A stretch of DNA of 43,739 nucleotides from assembly GCA_007695365.1 (NCBI GenBank), contig REDV01000107.1, positions 1-43,739 on the forward strand, in the 5' to 3' direction. This DNA is from Cryomorphaceae bacterium (GTDB lineage: Bacteria > Bacteroidota > Bacteroidia > Flavobacteriales_D > SKUL01). The position numbers and the translations under genes are program-made. The notes beneath the pieces were generated by a model, which had not been told where the DNA came from, searched no databases, and saw only the letters and a list, made by a program, of their open reading frames with translations. Below, piece by piece: positions 3,735 through 12,159 of the stretch; positions within the stretch are counted from its first letter, which is position 1; every line of letters starts with the position of its first letter.

Positions 3735-3838
3735 AGATCTTTGGTGTTGGATGATGGGCGAAAGATAGCTTTCGTTGGGCTTGTTTCATTGGTTTTGGCG
3801 GATTTTGTATCATTGAGGCATCGCAAATTTTGTACACT

Positions 3839-4495
3839 ATGAAAATCACCAGATTGATTCCGTTATGCGCTTTTTCACTTGTTTTGGCCGCTTGTGGGCC
3901 GCAGGAAATGACCGACCAGGATGGCAATGTGCTGGAGGTGGTTGAAATCGGCAACCAGCTATGGACGGCCTCTAACCTCAACGTGGCTACCTTCAGCAAT
4001 GGCGACCCCATCCCGGAGGTTAAATCAGCCGATGAGTGGCGCAAAGCTGGTGAGTCAGGTCAGCCTGCATGGTGCTATTTCAACAATGACCCGAAGATGG
4101 CCGACCGTTTTGGGCGTTTGTACAATTGGTATGCAGCAACCGATCCGCGTGGCCTTGCCCCGGAAGGATGGCACGTTCCGTCTGATGAAGAGTGGCAGGC
4201 TTTGTCTGAAAGTCAGGGTGGGCTTACCCAATCAGGTATTCGGTTAAAATCGTCCTCTGGCTGGGAGCAGCAAGGAAATGGGAACAATGAAAGTGGTTTT
4301 AATGCATTGGCTGCCGGCGGCAGAGGAGGGCAGAGCGGTTTTACCGGTCAGGGAAGGGTGGCTGTGTTTTGGAGCACCACATCCAAAAGCCCGAGTTTCG
4401 CTTTCTATTATGTTCTACACGCTTCGCGCACGGGCATTTTTCGGGAGAATGACGATAAAATGAGCGGGTTTTCGATTCGCTGTGTGCGGGACTAA
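3839..4495 (+). CDS. FISUMP-domain lipoprotein
   Basis: The protein is 218 residues from the ATG at 3839; an in-frame TTG nine bases earlier is a less likely start. It opens with a lipoprotein signal (MKITRLIPLCAFSLVLAACG), so it is probably a lipidated surface or periplasmic protein. The rest matches the Fibrobacter succinogenes major paralogous (FISUMP) domain: QLWTASNLNV near the start, GRLYNWYAA, the LAPEGWHVPSDEEW motif, then ESGFNALAAGGR and the terminal SGFSIRCVRD. Function of the domain is unknown; it is frequent in secreted Bacteroidota proteins. The 3' end faces the MORN-protein gene with only three bases between the stop codons and no terminator. Confidence 0.9.
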   Translation: MKITRLIPLCAFSLVLAACGPQEMTDQDGNVLEVVEIGNQLWTASNLNVATFSNGDPIPEVKSADEWRKAGESGQPAWCYFNNDPKMADRFGRLYNWYAATDPRGLAPEGWHVPSDEEWQALSESQGGLTQSGIRLKSSSGWEQQGNGNNESGFNALAAGGRGGQSGFTGQGRVAVFWSTTSKSPSFAFYYVLHASRTGIFRENDDKMSGFSIRCVRD

Positions 4496-4498
4496 ACG

Positions 4499-5416
4499 CT
4501 ACTTTTCGGTCGGTTTGTCGTCTTTCCACTGACCTTTGTACCGCACCGCGCTGTCCATATCGTATAGCGTGCCAAAGCCGTTACGGCGGTCGTTTTTCCA
4601 CTCACCTTCGTAGCGGTCGCCATTGGGCCAGTAGTAGGTTCCCTGACCTTCGCGCACACCATTTACGTAGCTCCCCACGTATTTTTCACCGTCCACCCAT
4701 TCAAAGGTTCCTTCACCGTGTCTCAGGTTGTTTTTCCAGTTTCCGCGGTAAATACTGCCTGTGGTCCAGATACCTACGCCACCACCATTGGCTTTGCCGT
4801 TTTCTACTTCGCCCAGGTAGTGGATTTTGTGACCTCTTGGGCTGTTAAAGGTGATTACCTGTACTTTAGATACTTTTTGTAACTCTTTCTCTTTCTTTGC
4901 CAGTTGTGCTACCAGTTCTTCTTTTTCGGAATTCATGTGTGTTCCCACCTCTTTTAACCGCCCTGTGAGACTATCTACGGCGGCTTCAAGCTGTGTTATA
5001 TTTTCACGTTGCTTCGACAACAAAAAGTCTCTGGGATCTACTTTGGTTTCGTTGGTGCTTTTCTGCATTTCGAGCATGTTTTCAATATGCTCGATACGTG
5101 CATCAACACGGGCAACGAGCGCGTTGTCTCCCACAGACAAAATGTTCTGATACTGCTCAAGCGCTTTCTCATAGTTACCCTCCAAAATCAAGGTTTCATC
5201 AGCACGATTAAGATGATCCAGACGCTGCAGGCTACCCTCTATTCTGGCTGTTTCTTCCTGTTGCGTTTTAATGCGCTCGGCAATGGTTTTGTTTTGCCCC
5301 AATGCCCACATAAACATTCCGAACATGACCAGTGCAATTAGAGACAGGATGATAAACCAACCAACAAATTTCTTGTTTTGCCATAGGTTTTGGGAAGACT
5401 GATGAGGATGTGACAT
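4499..5416 (-). CDS. Membrane-anchored coiled-coil MORN-repeat protein
   Basis: A 305-residue protein with one N-terminal transmembrane helix (about residues 17-39), charged helical/coiled-coil segments at about 40-70 and 130-183, a TPR-like stretch near 70-95, and at least five C-terminal MORN repeats beginning near residues 200, 223, 246, 269 and 293. Each follows the Y-x-G-x-W/Y...G-x-G pattern (for example YEGEWKNDRRNGFG). MORN repeats mediate protein or membrane contacts. With a single N-terminal helix and no cleavable signal, the repeats could face the periplasm or the cytoplasm. It lies 77 bases after the DUF2490 gene and has its own TACCTTTG box, so it may be transcribed both separately and with the upstream pair. 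Confidence 0.85.
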   Translation of the reverse strand: MSHPHQSSQNLWQNKKFVGWFIILSLIALVMFGMFMWALGQNKTIAERIKTQQEETARIEGSLQRLDHLNRADETLILEGNYEKALEQYQNILSVGDNALVARVDARIEHIENMLEMQKSTNETKVDPRDFLLSKQRENITQLEAAVDSLTGRLKEVGTHMNSEKEELVAQLAKKEKELQKVSKVQVITFNSPRGHKIHYLGEVENGKANGGGVGIWTTGSIYRGNWKNNLRHGEGTFEWVDGEKYVGSYVNGVREGQGTYYWPNGDRYEGEWKNDRRNGFGTLYDMDSAVRYKGQWKDDKPTEK

Positions 5417-5448
5417 GTGGGAAATAAGTATGATGTTTTATGCTTCCG

Positions 5449-5456
5449 CAAAGGTA
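5449..5456 (-). promoter_or_regulatory. -7 box upstream of the MORN gene
   Basis: TACCTTTG on the minus strand matches TAnnTTTG and lies 32 bases before the ATG at 5416. No convincing TTG is seen at the expected -33 position, so this is a moderate call. Confidence 0.45.
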
Positions 5457-5493
5457 CTAAGAATAGCGGGTCTGCGCCTGACACGCTATGACC

Positions 5494-6339
5494 TTAATCG
5501 AAAACTCGCGATTCGGGAATTCTGTTCTCAAATTTCCGCAAGTCGGGTGTCCACCATAGATTGATACGTGCCACGTAGCGCTGGCGGTAGTCATATCCAC
5601 GCCCCACACGTTGCCCCAAGGTGTACATGAGGCCTGCAGAGATGGCCACTTTGGTGCTGAGAATATATCCAATTGAAGGGTAAATACGCAAATCCTCAAG
5701 AGGTGCATCTGTAACAACTTTTCCGCTTTGCATAATAATTTCTGCATTGATAACATCTGCGTAAAACACTCCAGGCTTAAAGGTGGGCCCGTTGATTGGG
5801 ATTTTAAAAAGCAAGCGGTATCTCCACCGGTCGCGATACACCCAATCAGCGCCTATGCGATTGTTTCGGTTCCATCGATGTTCTATTCGGATTCGGTGTT
5901 GAAGTACAAAGTCCTTTCGGCCGAGCTTTCCTTTCATGGGAAAACTGTACTCGTGCCATATACGGGGCTCGAGCGTTAATTCTTCAAAATCTTCGTTGCC
6001 GGGTTCTGGAGTGAAGTTTAATCTCAATACGGGCCCAACGGTAAAGATAAAGCGGTCTGAAAACTTATAGGTGATTGCGTGGCGGTTATAAATTTGTGCC
6101 ATTCGGCCCACCCATGGAGTTCCATCGTAGTTGGACCGCCGGTAGTGGTGCTGTGCCTCGTAGTACAGTTTGTCTCCCAGTCTGATGGTGGTGTAGGTTC
6201 CTAACCACACCAGGGTTCCGGGGTCTTCAAAACGTGCTCCATCGGGTATGTTGAACTCGGGGTCCTGCGCATAAGAGTGATTGGTGAACATCAGTATCGC
6301 AAATGCGACAAAGAGCAGGCCTCTTTGCAAGAAACACAT
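5494..6339 (-). CDS. DUF2490 outer-membrane beta-barrel protein
   Basis: The protein is 281 residues from the ATG at 6339. A GTG at 6375 would add 12 residues ahead of the signal sequence and is less likely. After a signal peptide ending in FTNHSYAQ it shows the alternating aromatic/polar strands of an outer-membrane barrel. It matches DUF2490: an early TLVWLGTYTTIRLGDKL strand, central LEPRIWHEYSF and RIEHRW segments, and a final strand RQRYVARINLWW. DUF2490 proteins are thought to be small outer-membrane barrels of unknown function. If the GTG is used, the upstream stop is only three bases away, so co-transcription with the 693-residue gene is nearly certain. Confidence 0.85.
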   Translation of the reverse strand: MCFLQRGLLFVAFAILMFTNHSYAQDPEFNIPDGARFEDPGTLVWLGTYTTIRLGDKLYYEAQHHYRRSNYDGTPWVGRMAQIYNRHAITYKFSDRFIFTVGPVLRLNFTPEPGNEDFEELTLEPRIWHEYSFPMKGKLGRKDFVLQHRIRIEHRWNRNNRIGADWVYRDRWRYRLLFKIPINGPTFKPGVFYADVINAEIIMQSGKVVTDAPLEDLRIYPSIGYILSTKVAISAGLMYTLGQRVGRGYDYRQRYVARINLWWTPDLRKFENRIPESRVFD

Positions 6340-6378
6340 CAAACGGGTTTGCGGAAGTACTCCTCTGGAATCCACGAA

Positions 6379-8460
6379 TTAATTCAGGTTAAGGTTCAAT
6401 GAGATGATTTGCATGATTTCTTCAGGGTCAGAAACTCTGCGGAGTTGTCTCTCCATTTCACGCGTGTCCTGATCGCGTAACTCAACCATACGCTGGTAGA
6501 GATTCACCATGTTTTGTTGCTTTTCTTGTAGTCTGCCGCATTCTGCGTTGGTCATCATATCGTCAAGCACCAAGGGAAGCAGCGTATTTTCATACACGCG
6601 ATACAAACGTTCTTTGATTCTTTCGTCCATATAGGTAAAGGTGTAGGCATTCCACACGCTGCGGGTATAAATCTCTTCGAGTCTTTCAATTCTCAGAGGA
6701 ATACGCTCTATCATCTCATACGCTTCAATAGCCTCGCGGTAACATTTCTGTACAGCTTTGATTTCGTCTATCTTTTGGTCAATATCGAGTCGTGCATACC
6801 GCTTAAACTCTTCAGTCGCCATGCTTGTCATGGCTTCTGCAATGCGTTCGTGAAACCGGTTAAAATCATCCCTTCCTGCCTGATTTTTGAAAAAAGCCAA
6901 CACAGAGTCACGTTTTTCAACAAGACGCTCTTCGCGCTCGGTTAGTTCTCCTTCCAGTTTGTAGCGTTCGAGTATTTCTTCGGTACTGTTGTTGAGGTTA
7001 ATGAGAATATCCCGAGTGCGCTCAAGATGATGGTGCAAATTATGAAGGTTCGCATCGTTGTTTAACAACGCTTTGGGAAAATCAAAAGTCTCGCTTTCCG
7101 GCTTTCCTTTCACTTCAAAGTTAACAGCCGCCTGGTATTCAATTTCCGGAGTGATGTGTGGCATAAGGTTGTTGCGGTCCAGATAGAGAAAGGCGTCATC
7201 TGTAACAATCTTTACGCAGGGTCTTAACACGGACAGGGTTTCTTCAAAAATTTCAATGACACGGGCGTACAGTGCGATTTCTTTGTGAGCGTGTCGCCCA
7301 ACCTCTAAAAGACTGTTTTGTTGAAAGCGGTGGATGAGATTTTCAGAATCACTCAACAGTTTTTTAAGTTCGTTCCTTTTACCTTCTTCTTCAGCATTCA
7401 TAGGGTATATGGTGACTTTTACGACAGGCATTACAGGCTCGTCACTACCGCTCAGTGCACTCCAAACCGGAATACTATCAAAGTCACTGAATGAGGTCAG
7501 AAATTTGCTGAATCCCAGATTGAAGTAGGAAATCAGTTCAGAGCTGGTTTCTCCTGTAATCTTTTCTTCGTTTGCAGACGGCTGAAAACCAATAGCGGAA
7601 AATTCAAGGATTTTGAAATACAATTTACCCACAGCGACTTCTGATACATGATTTTCAGAAAGATCTGCACTCAGATGAATTCCTCTGTGTTCGACATTAA
7701 AGCGCTCATTGTTTTTCTCGAAATAGTGTTCCACCAAAAGCCCATTTTGGTATACCCGTACTTCGTCTAGAGCTAGTTCGCCTCTTTGTCCTCTTTTAAA
7801 GCGCCAAAGCCCATCTAATTGCCCCAAATCGTTGAAACCTCCTGTAATTCTGAGCTCGCCTTTTTTTCCTTTGAATTCTTTTGCAAAGCGCCCTTTGTGG
7901 AAGAAAGCTTCGGATTGAAAAATAGTGTCGGAAATCTGGCTTGCTTTAATGCGATTGAGTGCGATGTTCCACTTCCCCTGGGCTTTTCCTTTTTCAAATT
8001 TGGCCGAAACAACAAAGTCTTCGCCGTCGGCTTCTTTCACCAACTGATAGCCCCTTATGGCAAAACCAGGACTTACTGTGAAGTTTTTAAAACTGAACTC
8101 CCAATTACCCGATTTGTTCCCATCAAGGTAACTGCCGGCATAGGATACTCCGAGAAGGTTGTTCTCATTTTCAGGAGCTCTTTTAGTGGCATCGAAACGA
8201 AATGGGCCGTGGTAGATTGTATCGTTTCTTTCCACTTTGTAGGCGAACTGGGCATGCCCCTCCCAGCCTGTTTTCAATGCATAATAACCTTCATAGAGTT
8301 TTTCTGACTTTCCAGACTGTGCACTGGACGGCACAGCGTGGGACAAGAATAGGAGAGTGATTGAAATACAGGCTTTTGAAATCGATTTCACCCGGATAAA
8401 ACCAGTAATCAAACTTCGGATGGCATCAGTGAAGTACAAACGGGTGCAGATTCGATTCAT
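6379..8460 (-). CDS. Large secreted protein with MORN/YwqK-like repeats
   Basis: A 693-residue protein not assigned to a named family. An N-terminal export signal is seen at about residues 25-48 (a hydrophobic run ending SHAVPSSAQ), preceded by a basic extension that may not be translated if an internal start is used. Residues 55-250 contain repeated G-x-W strands such as GSYLDGNKSGNWEF and LGQLDGLWRFKRG, the pattern of MORN or YwqK-type beta-hairpin repeats. Residues 340-693 are mostly charged helices, probably coiled coil. It is the first gene of a minus-strand run with the DUF2490 barrel and the MORN membrane protein, suggesting an envelope-spanning assembly. No enzymatic motif is visible. 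Confidence 0.75.
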   Translation of the reverse strand: MNRICTRLYFTDAIRSLITGFIRVKSISKACISITLLFLSHAVPSSAQSGKSEKLYEGYYALKTGWEGHAQFAYKVERNDTIYHGPFRFDATKRAPENENNLLGVSYAGSYLDGNKSGNWEFSFKNFTVSPGFAIRGYQLVKEADGEDFVVSAKFEKGKAQGKWNIALNRIKASQISDTIFQSEAFFHKGRFAKEFKGKKGELRITGGFNDLGQLDGLWRFKRGQRGELALDEVRVYQNGLLVEHYFEKNNERFNVEHRGIHLSADLSENHVSEVAVGKLYFKILEFSAIGFQPSANEEKITGETSSELISYFNLGFSKFLTSFSDFDSIPVWSALSGSDEPVMPVVKVTIYPMNAEEEGKRNELKKLLSDSENLIHRFQQNSLLEVGRHAHKEIALYARVIEIFEETLSVLRPCVKIVTDDAFLYLDRNNLMPHITPEIEYQAAVNFEVKGKPESETFDFPKALLNNDANLHNLHHHLERTRDILINLNNSTEEILERYKLEGELTEREERLVEKRDSVLAFFKNQAGRDDFNRFHERIAEAMTSMATEEFKRYARLDIDQKIDEIKAVQKCYREAIEAYEMIERIPLRIERLEEIYTRSVWNAYTFTYMDERIKERLYRVYENTLLPLVLDDMMTNAECGRLQEKQQNMVNLYQRMVELRDQDTREMERQLRRVSDPEEIMQIISLNLNLN

Positions 8461-8474
8461 TTTTAAGGAAGTCG

Positions 8475-8482
8475 CAAAACTA
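8475..8482 (-). promoter_or_regulatory. -7 box of the YwqK-like/DUF2490 operon
   Basis: TAGTTTTG on the minus strand fits TAnnTTTG and lies 14 bases before the ATG at 8460. The upstream -33 region contains only a TTT, not a full TTG. The gap 8461-8561 otherwise shows no gene. Confidence 0.45.
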
Positions 8483-10269: not shown

Positions 10270-12159
10270 CTATCGCTTGATGACTTTTTCGGTAACCGTT
10301 TCGCCGTTTTCGCTCATCACCCTTAGGATATAGGTGCCACCTGCAAGATGTCCCATGTCAAAGCTCAGGAGGTTGCGTCCTTCTTTGATGCGGTCATTGT
10401 ACAGTTGTGCAACCACGCGACCCTGTATGTCAAAAAGCGAAACATCGGCCACAAAAGCTCTGTCATGCGTGATTTCAAGCGAAAACATGTCGCGCATTGG
10501 ATTGGGGAAGGCGGTTAATTGCATGGCAGGTTCTGCAGGTTTTTGCTCCTGCACACTCACAAACTGTCCGGAGATACTCAGTTCGGCCAACCATGTTCCG
10601 TGTCTTTGGTTGGGCAGACCGAAGGAGCCGGCAATCCAGACATTTCCGGGTGTTCCGTACACCGGTTGTGAGCCGGAGTAATCGCCCCATCGGTCGTAGG
10701 TTCCGCTGAGAACATTCACGTAATTGTCTCCTTCCTTCAGTACGATGCGCTCACTGTAATCCTGTTGGGTATGATCGTAATACACACACGATGTGCCTGC
10801 AAAATGGGTGGGGCCGGTATGTACAAACGACAGGAGTGTGTTTTGATCTACACCGTGGGTACCCATCAAGGAAATGTTGGGGTAGCCAATGTCCAGGTCA
10901 TCTTGCGGAAAGGAAACAATATTGCCTGAAACGGTAGGGCTGCTGCTCAGGTTTTCGATAAATCCGTGGTACACGGCCGTTACGCCGCTCTCAGGATCAA
11001 GGCAATTTTGCACAAACTGGATGTTGTCGTCGTCAAAAAGCACAGCACCCAGTACGCGGGAGTCGTTGGTGTCAAAAATGTGGTCATTTGCCTGACGGGC
11101 TTCGGGTGCCAGGTAGTAAGGCTGCGAGGAGGTGAGCGCCTGGATGGTCACTTCTGCCGCTCCACTGGCAAGTGTGTTGGTTACTTCCAGCAGAAAAATG
11201 GTGTCGTTTTCCAGCGCAAAATTTCGGTTCGAAAGAAGGTACATGTTGTTGCGGTCAAAAAAAGCTTCACCATCTACAGGATTCAGGTTGCGTATCAGTG
11301 TATTTCCCCAGGTGAAATCGGTAAGAAGTTCGGCTTCCATATCGTCCTCAGCGCTGTACACCGATTCTTTGTCTATTTGCCAGATCATGGAGCCGTCAAA
11401 GCCGGTTTGCCACGGCTCCCCGGGGATGATAAAGTTGGCGGTGATAAAAAAGTCTGAGGCGTTTTGTGAAAGGGCAGGGTAATCGGTCCATCGATTGTTA
11501 TCGAATGGATTTCCTGGCAGGGAATAAAAACTCCATTCACCGGTGGGGTTGCCGGGTTCTGAAACGGCAAAAATGATAAGCGACAAATTGGGGGTTGAGG
11601 CTCGTAGAAAGGTAAAAAAGAAACGGTCTGCCTGCGGGTCGTAAATGATTTTGGGGTCGTACTTTGCCGGTGTGCCAAATTGAAAGGAGGTAAAGGTATT
11701 GAAGTTCGCATCGTACAGAAGCGAGTCTTCTACAAGGTCGTAGATGTAAATGGTTGAATTGATCACAGAAATCAGCTTTCCGTCATTGGAAATGGCCATG
11801 TTATTATCGCAAGGAACACTCAAGGTGGGTGCATTTCCTTCAAACATTCTACCAACATCAGGCGAGCTCACAGAGCTGCGCTGGCTTCCTTGTGAACTAC
11901 TGTTCCGAAGCGGGTACAGCTCGCGTTGAACAGCTTTTTGTTGTCGGAGAAAAGAACGGTAATCACTTCCTCCGGGCGCAGGCATCTCAAGATTGAGCAC
12001 AGAAACGTTCCAGTCTGGCTCAGCACTTTGCTCACTGAGATTAACGGTTTGATGCTTGGTAATCGCGAACTTTTCCTGCTTGTAACTGAACGATTGCGAC
12101 ATAGCAGGTAGTACAAACAGGGCGAACAAAGTGATGGGGAGACTTGCTTTCATTTGCAT
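10270..12159 (-). CDS. T9SS type A cargo protein
   Basis: A 629-residue secreted protein. It starts MQMKASLPITLFALFVLPAMSQ (either Met could start it) with a signal peptide, and ends with a type A T9SS sorting domain at about residues 545-629: TAFPNPMRDMFSLEI, LFDIQGRVV, then GTYILRV and a terminal KVIKR. The middle (about 110-520) is a beta-rich region with many Asp/Asn/Tyr residues and segments such as SNDGKLISVINSTIYIYD, suggesting a propeller-like fold; no catalytic motif is evident. It is exported by Sec, then crosses the outer membrane through T9SS and is attached or released. A TACTTTCG box 14 bases upstream may be its promoter. Confidence 0.87.
   Translation of the reverse strand: MQMKASLPITLFALFVLPAMSQSFSYKQEKFAITKHQTVNLSEQSAEPDWNVSVLNLEMPAPGGSDYRSFLRQQKAVQRELYPLRNSSSQGSQRSSVSSPDVGRMFEGNAPTLSVPCDNNMAISNDGKLISVINSTIYIYDLVEDSLLYDANFNTFTSFQFGTPAKYDPKIIYDPQADRFFFTFLRASTPNLSLIIFAVSEPGNPTGEWSFYSLPGNPFDNNRWTDYPALSQNASDFFITANFIIPGEPWQTGFDGSMIWQIDKESVYSAEDDMEAELLTDFTWGNTLIRNLNPVDGEAFFDRNNMYLLSNRNFALENDTIFLLEVTNTLASGAAEVTIQALTSSQPYYLAPEARQANDHIFDTNDSRVLGAVLFDDDNIQFVQNCLDPESGVTAVYHGFIENLSSSPTVSGNIVSFPQDDLDIGYPNISLMGTHGVDQNTLLSFVHTGPTHFAGTSCVYYDHTQQDYSERIVLKEGDNYVNVLSGTYDRWGDYSGSQPVYGTPGNVWIAGSFGLPNQRHGTWLAELSISGQFVSVQEQKPAEPAMQLTAFPNPMRDMFSLEITHDRAFVADVSLFDIQGRVVAQLYNDRIKEGRNLLSFDMGHLAGGTYILRVMSENGETVTEKVIKR

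Follow-up and report, generated by a model that had tools for sequence, protein, structure and literature searches.

Organization of the locus

Three open reading frames (ORFs) follow one another on the minus strand of the window, by which we mean the whole 43,739-nucleotide stretch that was analysed. An earlier note on this DNA had claimed this run of genes, and all three ORFs have been recovered at the coordinates collected in Table 1. We will use the term “BIG” to define the largest product, which belongs to a family of about 650–700 residues, and the terms “barrel” and “MORN protein” for the products of the two genes that follow it.

Table 1. Coordinates of the three genes and of the features predicted within their products
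Feature	Position	Strand	Basis
BIG (693 aa, predicted to be exported)	6379..8460	-	ORF; in no named family
BIG residues 24-42, predicted hydrophobic helix of export signal	8335..8391	-	helix in model, low pLDDT
BIG residues 54-255, predicted MORN-fold antiparallel sheet	7696..8301	-	AlphaFold2 model; RSPH1 7dmp Z 10.4, Morn1 6t68 Z 10.2
BIG residues 279-685, predicted mainly helical domain, long helix 472-525 (54 residues)	6406..7626	-	model
BIG residues 598-614, predicted hairpin with conserved N[PA]YT motif (N604)	6619..6669	-	N604 invariant in 11 members
BIG residues 663-684, conserved C-terminal ERxLRRxxxPE helix	6409..6474	-	R671 invariant in 11 members
DUF2490 barrel, predicted outer-membrane (293 aa from GTG)	5494..6375	-	ORF; PF10677 7.6e-27
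Barrel residues 54-275, 11-12 predicted strands, one polar face with invariant Arg/Glu	5551..6216	-	model and alignment
MORN protein: single-pass membrane protein, spacer, C-terminal MORN repeats (305 aa)	4499..5416	-	ORF; PF02493 1.1e-23
MORN protein residues 21-39, membrane segment	5300..5356	-	hydropathy 2.55 over 19 residues
MORN protein residues 41-187, spacer of near-constant length and poorly conserved sequence	4856..5296	-	15-member comparison
MORN protein residues 190-303, MORN repeats	4508..4849	-	PF02493 and alignment

A FISUMP-domain protein (window 3830–4495) converges on the MORN gene, and its cluster is present in only 3 loci of the 27-locus neighbour set described below. A type IX-sorted secreted protein is encoded upstream of the gene set (10270–12159). 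The promoter box consensus of Bacteroidota is TAnnTTTG, and it is resembled by TACCTTTG before the MORN gene (minus strand, 5449–5456) and by TAGTTTTG before BIG (minus strand, 8475–8482). Sigma-70-like sites in the window are not above shuffles (4 against a shuffle mean of 5.1), terminator-like sites number 9 against 5.3 (sd 1.9) in shuffles, and an Rfam scan of the window matched no RNA element.

The DUF2490 barrel

The earlier note had assigned the middle gene to DUF2490, and the assignment is borne out by a match to PF10677 at 94.7 bits against a cut-off of 29.8, which makes the window barrel a clear member of the family. DUF2490 corresponds to TCDB family 1.B.81, which the entry in PMC4827864 names only as a putative porin, and a Bacteroides thetaiotaomicron DUF2490 gene is listed beside DUF4956 in a list within PMC10434189. 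The predicted model has a pLDDT of 85.9 and 11 strand elements, one of which is bent and has been counted once, so that the barrel probably has 12 strands. Fold comparison returns PcoB, BrkA, VhGalP, NanC, and KdgM at Z 13.6–14.1, LpxR at 12.9, and OMPLA at 10.5; every fold row is a membrane beta barrel (Z up to 14.1). Foldseek on the same model gives no E of 0.001 or better, and the barrel profile finds no relative at E up to 1 among the PDB sequences. The protein is thus best described as a predicted outer-membrane beta barrel.

Of the 11 strands, 8 have two clearly unlike faces, one being the more hydrophobic and the other bearing the charged residues. The residues invariant in 28 members include R79, R98, R138, R163, E165, R167, R183, R185, E212, and R230. 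In the simplest reading, the interior of the barrel would be arginine-rich, which leans to an anionic cargo.

The fold matches also include the enzymes LpxR and OMPLA, which are 12-stranded. The barrel could be a lipid A or phospholipid enzyme of the outer membrane in the manner of LpxR or OMPLA, with BIG and the MORN protein controlling the access of lipids. The two Z scores and the invariant polar residues agree with such a role, as does the frequent description of MORN repeats as lipid-binding in the relevant part of PMC8934682. On the other hand, the search of PDB sequences at E up to 1 returned no relative, and porins and autotransporter domains score equally well or better in the fold comparison, so that we consider this reading improbable.

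BIG: sequence, export signal, and fold

BIG has been compared with Pfam and NCBIfam, where nothing scores above the cut-off, and with the PDB sequences, where no relative has been found (best E 0.2). When 26 members of the family are compared with Pfam, 17 families appear, each in a single member, and no known domain is therefore common to the BIG members. The earlier note had described MORN- or YwqK-like hairpins and long helices in this protein. None of the 26 members, each scanned singly, gives a MORN match in Pfam at E up to 0.1. The YwqK/MORN_2 identity is likewise rejected at the level of sequence, with no such family among the Pfam and NCBIfam matches of BIG or the Pfam matches of the 26 members. 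The MORN-like part of the claim holds in the structure prediction, in which the AlphaFold2 model (mean pLDDT 86.1, pTM 0.67) places the strands of residues 54–255 in hairpins that align with MORN proteins. In the structural alignment of this N-terminal domain, MORN proteins, either axonemal or MORN1, fill the first 11 rows (Z 9.0–10.4), and the next row is OspA, another single-layer sheet (Z 8.9); Foldseek alone on the model finds nothing at E 0.001 or better. By this prediction, the N-terminal domain has the MORN fold, a single-layer antiparallel hairpin sheet like that of MORN1 and RSPH1.

The long helices are also present in the model and make up the second domain. Its structural matches are limited to designed repeats and DnaK-like bundles, which are generic, and no known fold has been assigned to it. 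Asn604 is at least 90% conserved in the 26 members. A regular expression for the export site finds an A-x-A-Q-like sequence in 57 of 95 members and a lipobox-like sequence in 6 of 95, and the NCBIfam model of the type IX C-terminal sorting domain gives no match in BIG. Two irregular genes have been seen among the relatives. In one locus (L151:5168-5950), the BIG that precedes an intact barrel and MORN gene is 261 aa long and may represent a truncated gene or a short form. In the other (L089:4929-6697, on the same contig as L139), a stop splits BIG into two ORFs, with the barrel and MORN genes open.

The MORN protein

The third gene matches PF02493 at 82.1 bits against a cut-off of 22.5, in three tandem stretches. 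The count of five repeats in the earlier note is fair, as inspection by eye shows four complete repeats followed by half a repeat at the end, of which HMMER passes three stretches. The repeats also match phrog_7324, and the helical part matches PbeC of PADLOC (E 0.004). Hydropathy clearly marks a single membrane segment near the N-terminus. The charge is more positive before this segment in 75 of 93 MORN proteins (15 aligned members and 78 search matches, with some overlap), which favours a periplasmic C-terminus; the window protein has equal charge on both sides of the segment, and its topology is therefore uncertain.

Measured by rule in the 93 sequences, the spacer between the membrane segment and the repeats has a median of 148 residues (5–95% range, 138–154). 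Among the 15 aligned members it spans 135–150 residues at a mean pairwise identity of 0.18, against 0.53 in the repeats. This constancy of length may come from common descent only. A straight helix of the spacer length would measure ~22 nm, near the width of the periplasm. The coiled coil proposed in the earlier note finds little support, since the heptad periodicity exceeds that of shuffles (below 0.05 of shuffles) in only 4 of the 15 members. This weak periodicity, together with a TPR-like stretch recognised by eye, is evidence against one straight coiled coil. The spacer may fold back and may fall short of 20 nm.

Conservation of the gene set

A query made from the barrel alone, built from the barrels of the main BIG–barrel–MORN arrangement, has been compared with 84,980 species genomes. 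The best 80 of 158 relatives were kept, and these are the closest relatives rather than a random draw. Among them, BIG lies directly upstream of the barrel in 79 of 80 loci, with Brumimicrobium mesophilum as the only exception, and the MORN gene follows the barrel in the same orientation in 77 of 80. It is inverted in one further locus, and the contigs of the two loci without it end 5 bases and 1 base past the barrel. Thirteen of the 80 loci are on contigs that supplied rows of the query; when these are excluded, BIG is upstream in 66 of 67 loci and MORN downstream in 64 of 67. Clustering of the neighbours in the same best 80 of 158 places only BIG, the barrel, and MORN in 78 or more of the loci. 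The next cluster is found in 18 of 80 and all others in 11 or fewer, and the 27-locus set is similar. The gap between BIG and the barrel is at most 5 nt in 71 of 84 pairs, a count that took the first possible start codon and so favours short gaps.

The association has also been followed from the side of BIG. In the order and class samples, all BIG matches above about 70 bits that have room on their contig adjoin a DUF2490-like barrel, giving 27 BIG–barrel loci (L012–L020, L085–L100, L102, and the window), 15 of which also have MORN. A match of 82 bits at a contig end (L101) was not counted. Neither a barrel nor a MORN gene adjoins the thirteen matches under 63 bits (L103–L115), which resemble other MORN-like sheets and were excluded from the counts. 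BIG is locked to the barrel in the 95 pairs examined. In 395 class genomes, one group of six makes up both the top barrel tier (at least 414 bits) and the top MORN tier (at least 297), and BIG is present in every one of them. Seven other DUF2490-like barrels, by comparison, have no adjoining BIG or full MORN partner, and one of them is accompanied by a 144-aa ORF with a weak MORN match. Within the 3.5 Mb of the window genome, a single gene carries MORN repeats and DUF2490 is found at four places; together with the recurrence of the trio in many other genomes, this excludes chance. The conservation of the gene order across Bacteroidota, on which the earlier note had made its proposal depend, is thus strong.

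The three genes could be linked by operon inheritance only, with products that do not act together, as direct interaction between the products is putative. Against this, the trio is kept across families while all other neighbours change, and three diverged barrel lineages, described below, each keep their own BIG lineage. We regard this as the least probable of the readings weighed here.

The hosts span several orders of Bacteroidota. BIG matches at E 0.001 occur in 12 of 395 phylum genomes, and eight of these (including the window genome) score above 350 bits and belong to one class. This patchy distribution points to an accessory trait. A plasmid-borne origin was considered and set aside, as a tblastn search with BIG gave no match in 72,556 plasmid records, and so was a phage or defence origin, as neither BIG nor the barrel matches PHROG or PADLOC.

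Some of the hosts (Zobellia, Maribacter, and Aquimarina) come from gliding, polymer-degrading groups, and the type IX-sorted protein at 10270–12159 is encoded near the window genes. In a further reading, the set would serve Bacteroidota as an accessory at the surface or in secretion, assisting type IX secretion or gliding, for instance. The lack of a match between BIG and the type IX sorting model, the neighbours, which are not conserved, and the presence of BIG in just 12 of 395 phylum genomes speak against such a role, and we hold it to be very improbable.

A small outer-membrane barrel of the PF13568 type accompanies the set, adjacent or close by, in 21 of 80 loci, three of which are weak matches, and is absent from the 23 control loci. 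It is sometimes convergent after MORN and sometimes upstream (for example, L152:7726-8442, L131:7746-8405, L157:7710-8351, L123:7735-8532, and L013:905-1585), and it may be a facultative fourth part. The PF13568 barrel of a sister genome was not found in the window genome by a search run without a positive control.

Barrel lineages and partial gene sets

In a barrel tree of 112 rows, the main lineage holds 86 rows, 77 of which are BIG–barrel–MORN sets. A second lineage, in which the barrel gene comes first, forms one clade of 7 rows with support of 100/100, and a third contains tandem BIG–barrel pairs and barrel–MORN pairs. Some standalone barrels are on long, unsure branches. In a FastTree of 95 BIG rows, the BIGs of the second lineage form one clade and those of the third another. 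Two changes are needed for the main lineage in this tree, because the MORN-less L019, L093, L098, and L099 are outside its core; they are outside the main core in the barrel tree too, and the contig of L019 ends there. The trees omit L131 and L153, which share their contigs with L015 and L017, and the BIG tree also omits BIG rows no longer than 500 aa. Both trees separate the same three lineages, so the barrel and BIG have diversified together. In both, a Pontibacter clusters with one member of the Saprospiraceae and with members of the Flavobacteriales, a hint that the gene unit may have been transferred.

Partial sets occur in both directions. The barrel-first and third barrel–BIG lineages have, as a rule, no adjoining MORN gene; the window genome itself has a second, barrel-first pair of this kind on another contig (L012:4286-7005, G000:C126). 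Barrel–MORN pairs without BIG are found, below the top score tier of the class genomes, at L272–L275 in a separate barrel lineage and at L276 in genome G393, and another is at L122. In five loci (L118, L119, L120, L123, and L124), a tandem second BIG–barrel pair, or a BIG followed by two barrels, is present beside the main set. The barrel is the hub of these arrangements, being the constant partner, and BIG and MORN are each optional.

Because two lineages lack a MORN neighbour as a rule, bridging is not essential for the barrel–BIG pair. The set may be an outer-membrane module that bridges nothing, with BIG and the MORN protein as periplasmic assembly factors, a plug, or regulators, and a membrane segment that only places the MORN protein near its export site. 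The barrel–BIG pairs without MORN in two further lineages, the barrel–MORN pairs without BIG, and the weak heptad signal in the spacer agree with this. It fits less well with a spacer length that stays near-constant at 18% identity and with a trio that is complete in every genome of the top score tier. We consider a module without bridging the strongest of the alternatives, if still unlikely.

A proposed envelope assembly

Starting from the gene set, the co-conservation, the co-diversification, the folds, and the spacer length computed here, we propose that the three genes are one functional unit, encoding a Bacteroidota envelope complex around the DUF2490 barrel with bridging of the periplasm and passage of a solute. 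We give this reading a probability of about 0.5. An envelope-spanning assembly had already been suggested in the earlier note, and the present results support that suggestion in part. At its simplest, the model has a barrel whose periplasmic partners are of the MORN fold, with an inner-membrane anchor on one of them, since the barrel is constant, BIG and MORN need not be present, and each of the two supplies a MORN-fold sheet (a predicted one for BIG). Such an arrangement may serve the passage of a cargo, the tethering of the membranes, or the control of a lipid enzyme. Physical contact between the products, their periplasmic topology, the bridging, the cargo, and its direction are what we infer beyond this.

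In the full proposal, the barrel would sit in the outer membrane as a channel, probably 12-stranded, with an arginine-rich interior. BIG would reach the periplasm by export, and both its MORN-fold sheet and its helical domain would dock there on the periplasmic face of the barrel, acting as an adaptor or gate. The MORN protein would be anchored in the inner membrane, and its spacer of near-constant length would carry the MORN repeats across the periplasm to the assembly of barrel and BIG, tying the channel to the inner membrane. A solute, perhaps anionic, would then most likely cross the outer membrane, with the inner membrane either coupled to this passage or setting its position. Against the proposal, the genes near the set include no energy source or transporter.

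The gene set is a real, undescribed, and widely conserved three-gene unit with a putative complex and job. A search of the literature on DUF2490, MORN in Bacteroidetes, and YwqK, with subscription journals mostly outside its scope, found no description of it. With an unnamed family of ~650–700 residues so firmly tied to an outer-membrane barrel, the knowledge of the Bacteroidota envelope has a considerable gap. MORN repeats are best known from eukaryotic membrane junctions and cilia; if the bridge is true, they would be at work in a bacterial envelope, and DUF2490 barrels would gain their first functional context. The cultured hosts Zobellia, Maribacter, Sphingobacterium, and Psychroflexus make direct tests possible.

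Comparison with known systems

Systems that combine an outer-membrane channel with partners in the periplasm and the inner membrane are of a kind already known. The likeness of the barrel to the 12-stranded channels KdgM, NanC, and PcoB lies in the predicted fold (Z 13.6–14.1) and the presumably charged interior. KdgM and NanC have arginine tracks and are porins for acidic oligosaccharides. No sequence relation to the KdgM and NanC porins was found in the PDB comparison (E up to 1), and we know of no MORN partners of channels of the KdgM, NanC, and PcoB type.

TIC100 is described in the portion of PMC9338805 that concerns it as a MORN-sheet protein of the chloroplast-envelope translocon, hence of a double-membrane envelope. 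The MORN profile matches this protein (8z9y_D), and it appears among the fold rows of BIG at Z 6.6, a low score. No other TIC or TOC part is present here.

A further likeness, in the way the protein may work, is to the junctophilins, which have six plus two MORN motifs, a helical region, and a C-terminal membrane anchor, according to the section of PMC8934682 devoted to them. As in the MORN protein, MORN repeats, a helical spacer, and one membrane anchor are combined in a single protein, and the same section describes a protein that joins two membranes. The present protein is bacterial, has its anchor at the N-terminus and its repeats at the C-terminus, and carries 4–5 repeats rather than 6+2; with the order reversed, it is not a member of the junctophilins, and its bridging would be a parallel at the level of function. 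A MORN-based bridge of the periplasm would make it an inverted bacterial counterpart of the junctophilins, in which an anchor and a ruler-like spacer form a new contact site between the inner and outer membranes with its own channel, an idea that we put forward as tentative and rather doubtful.
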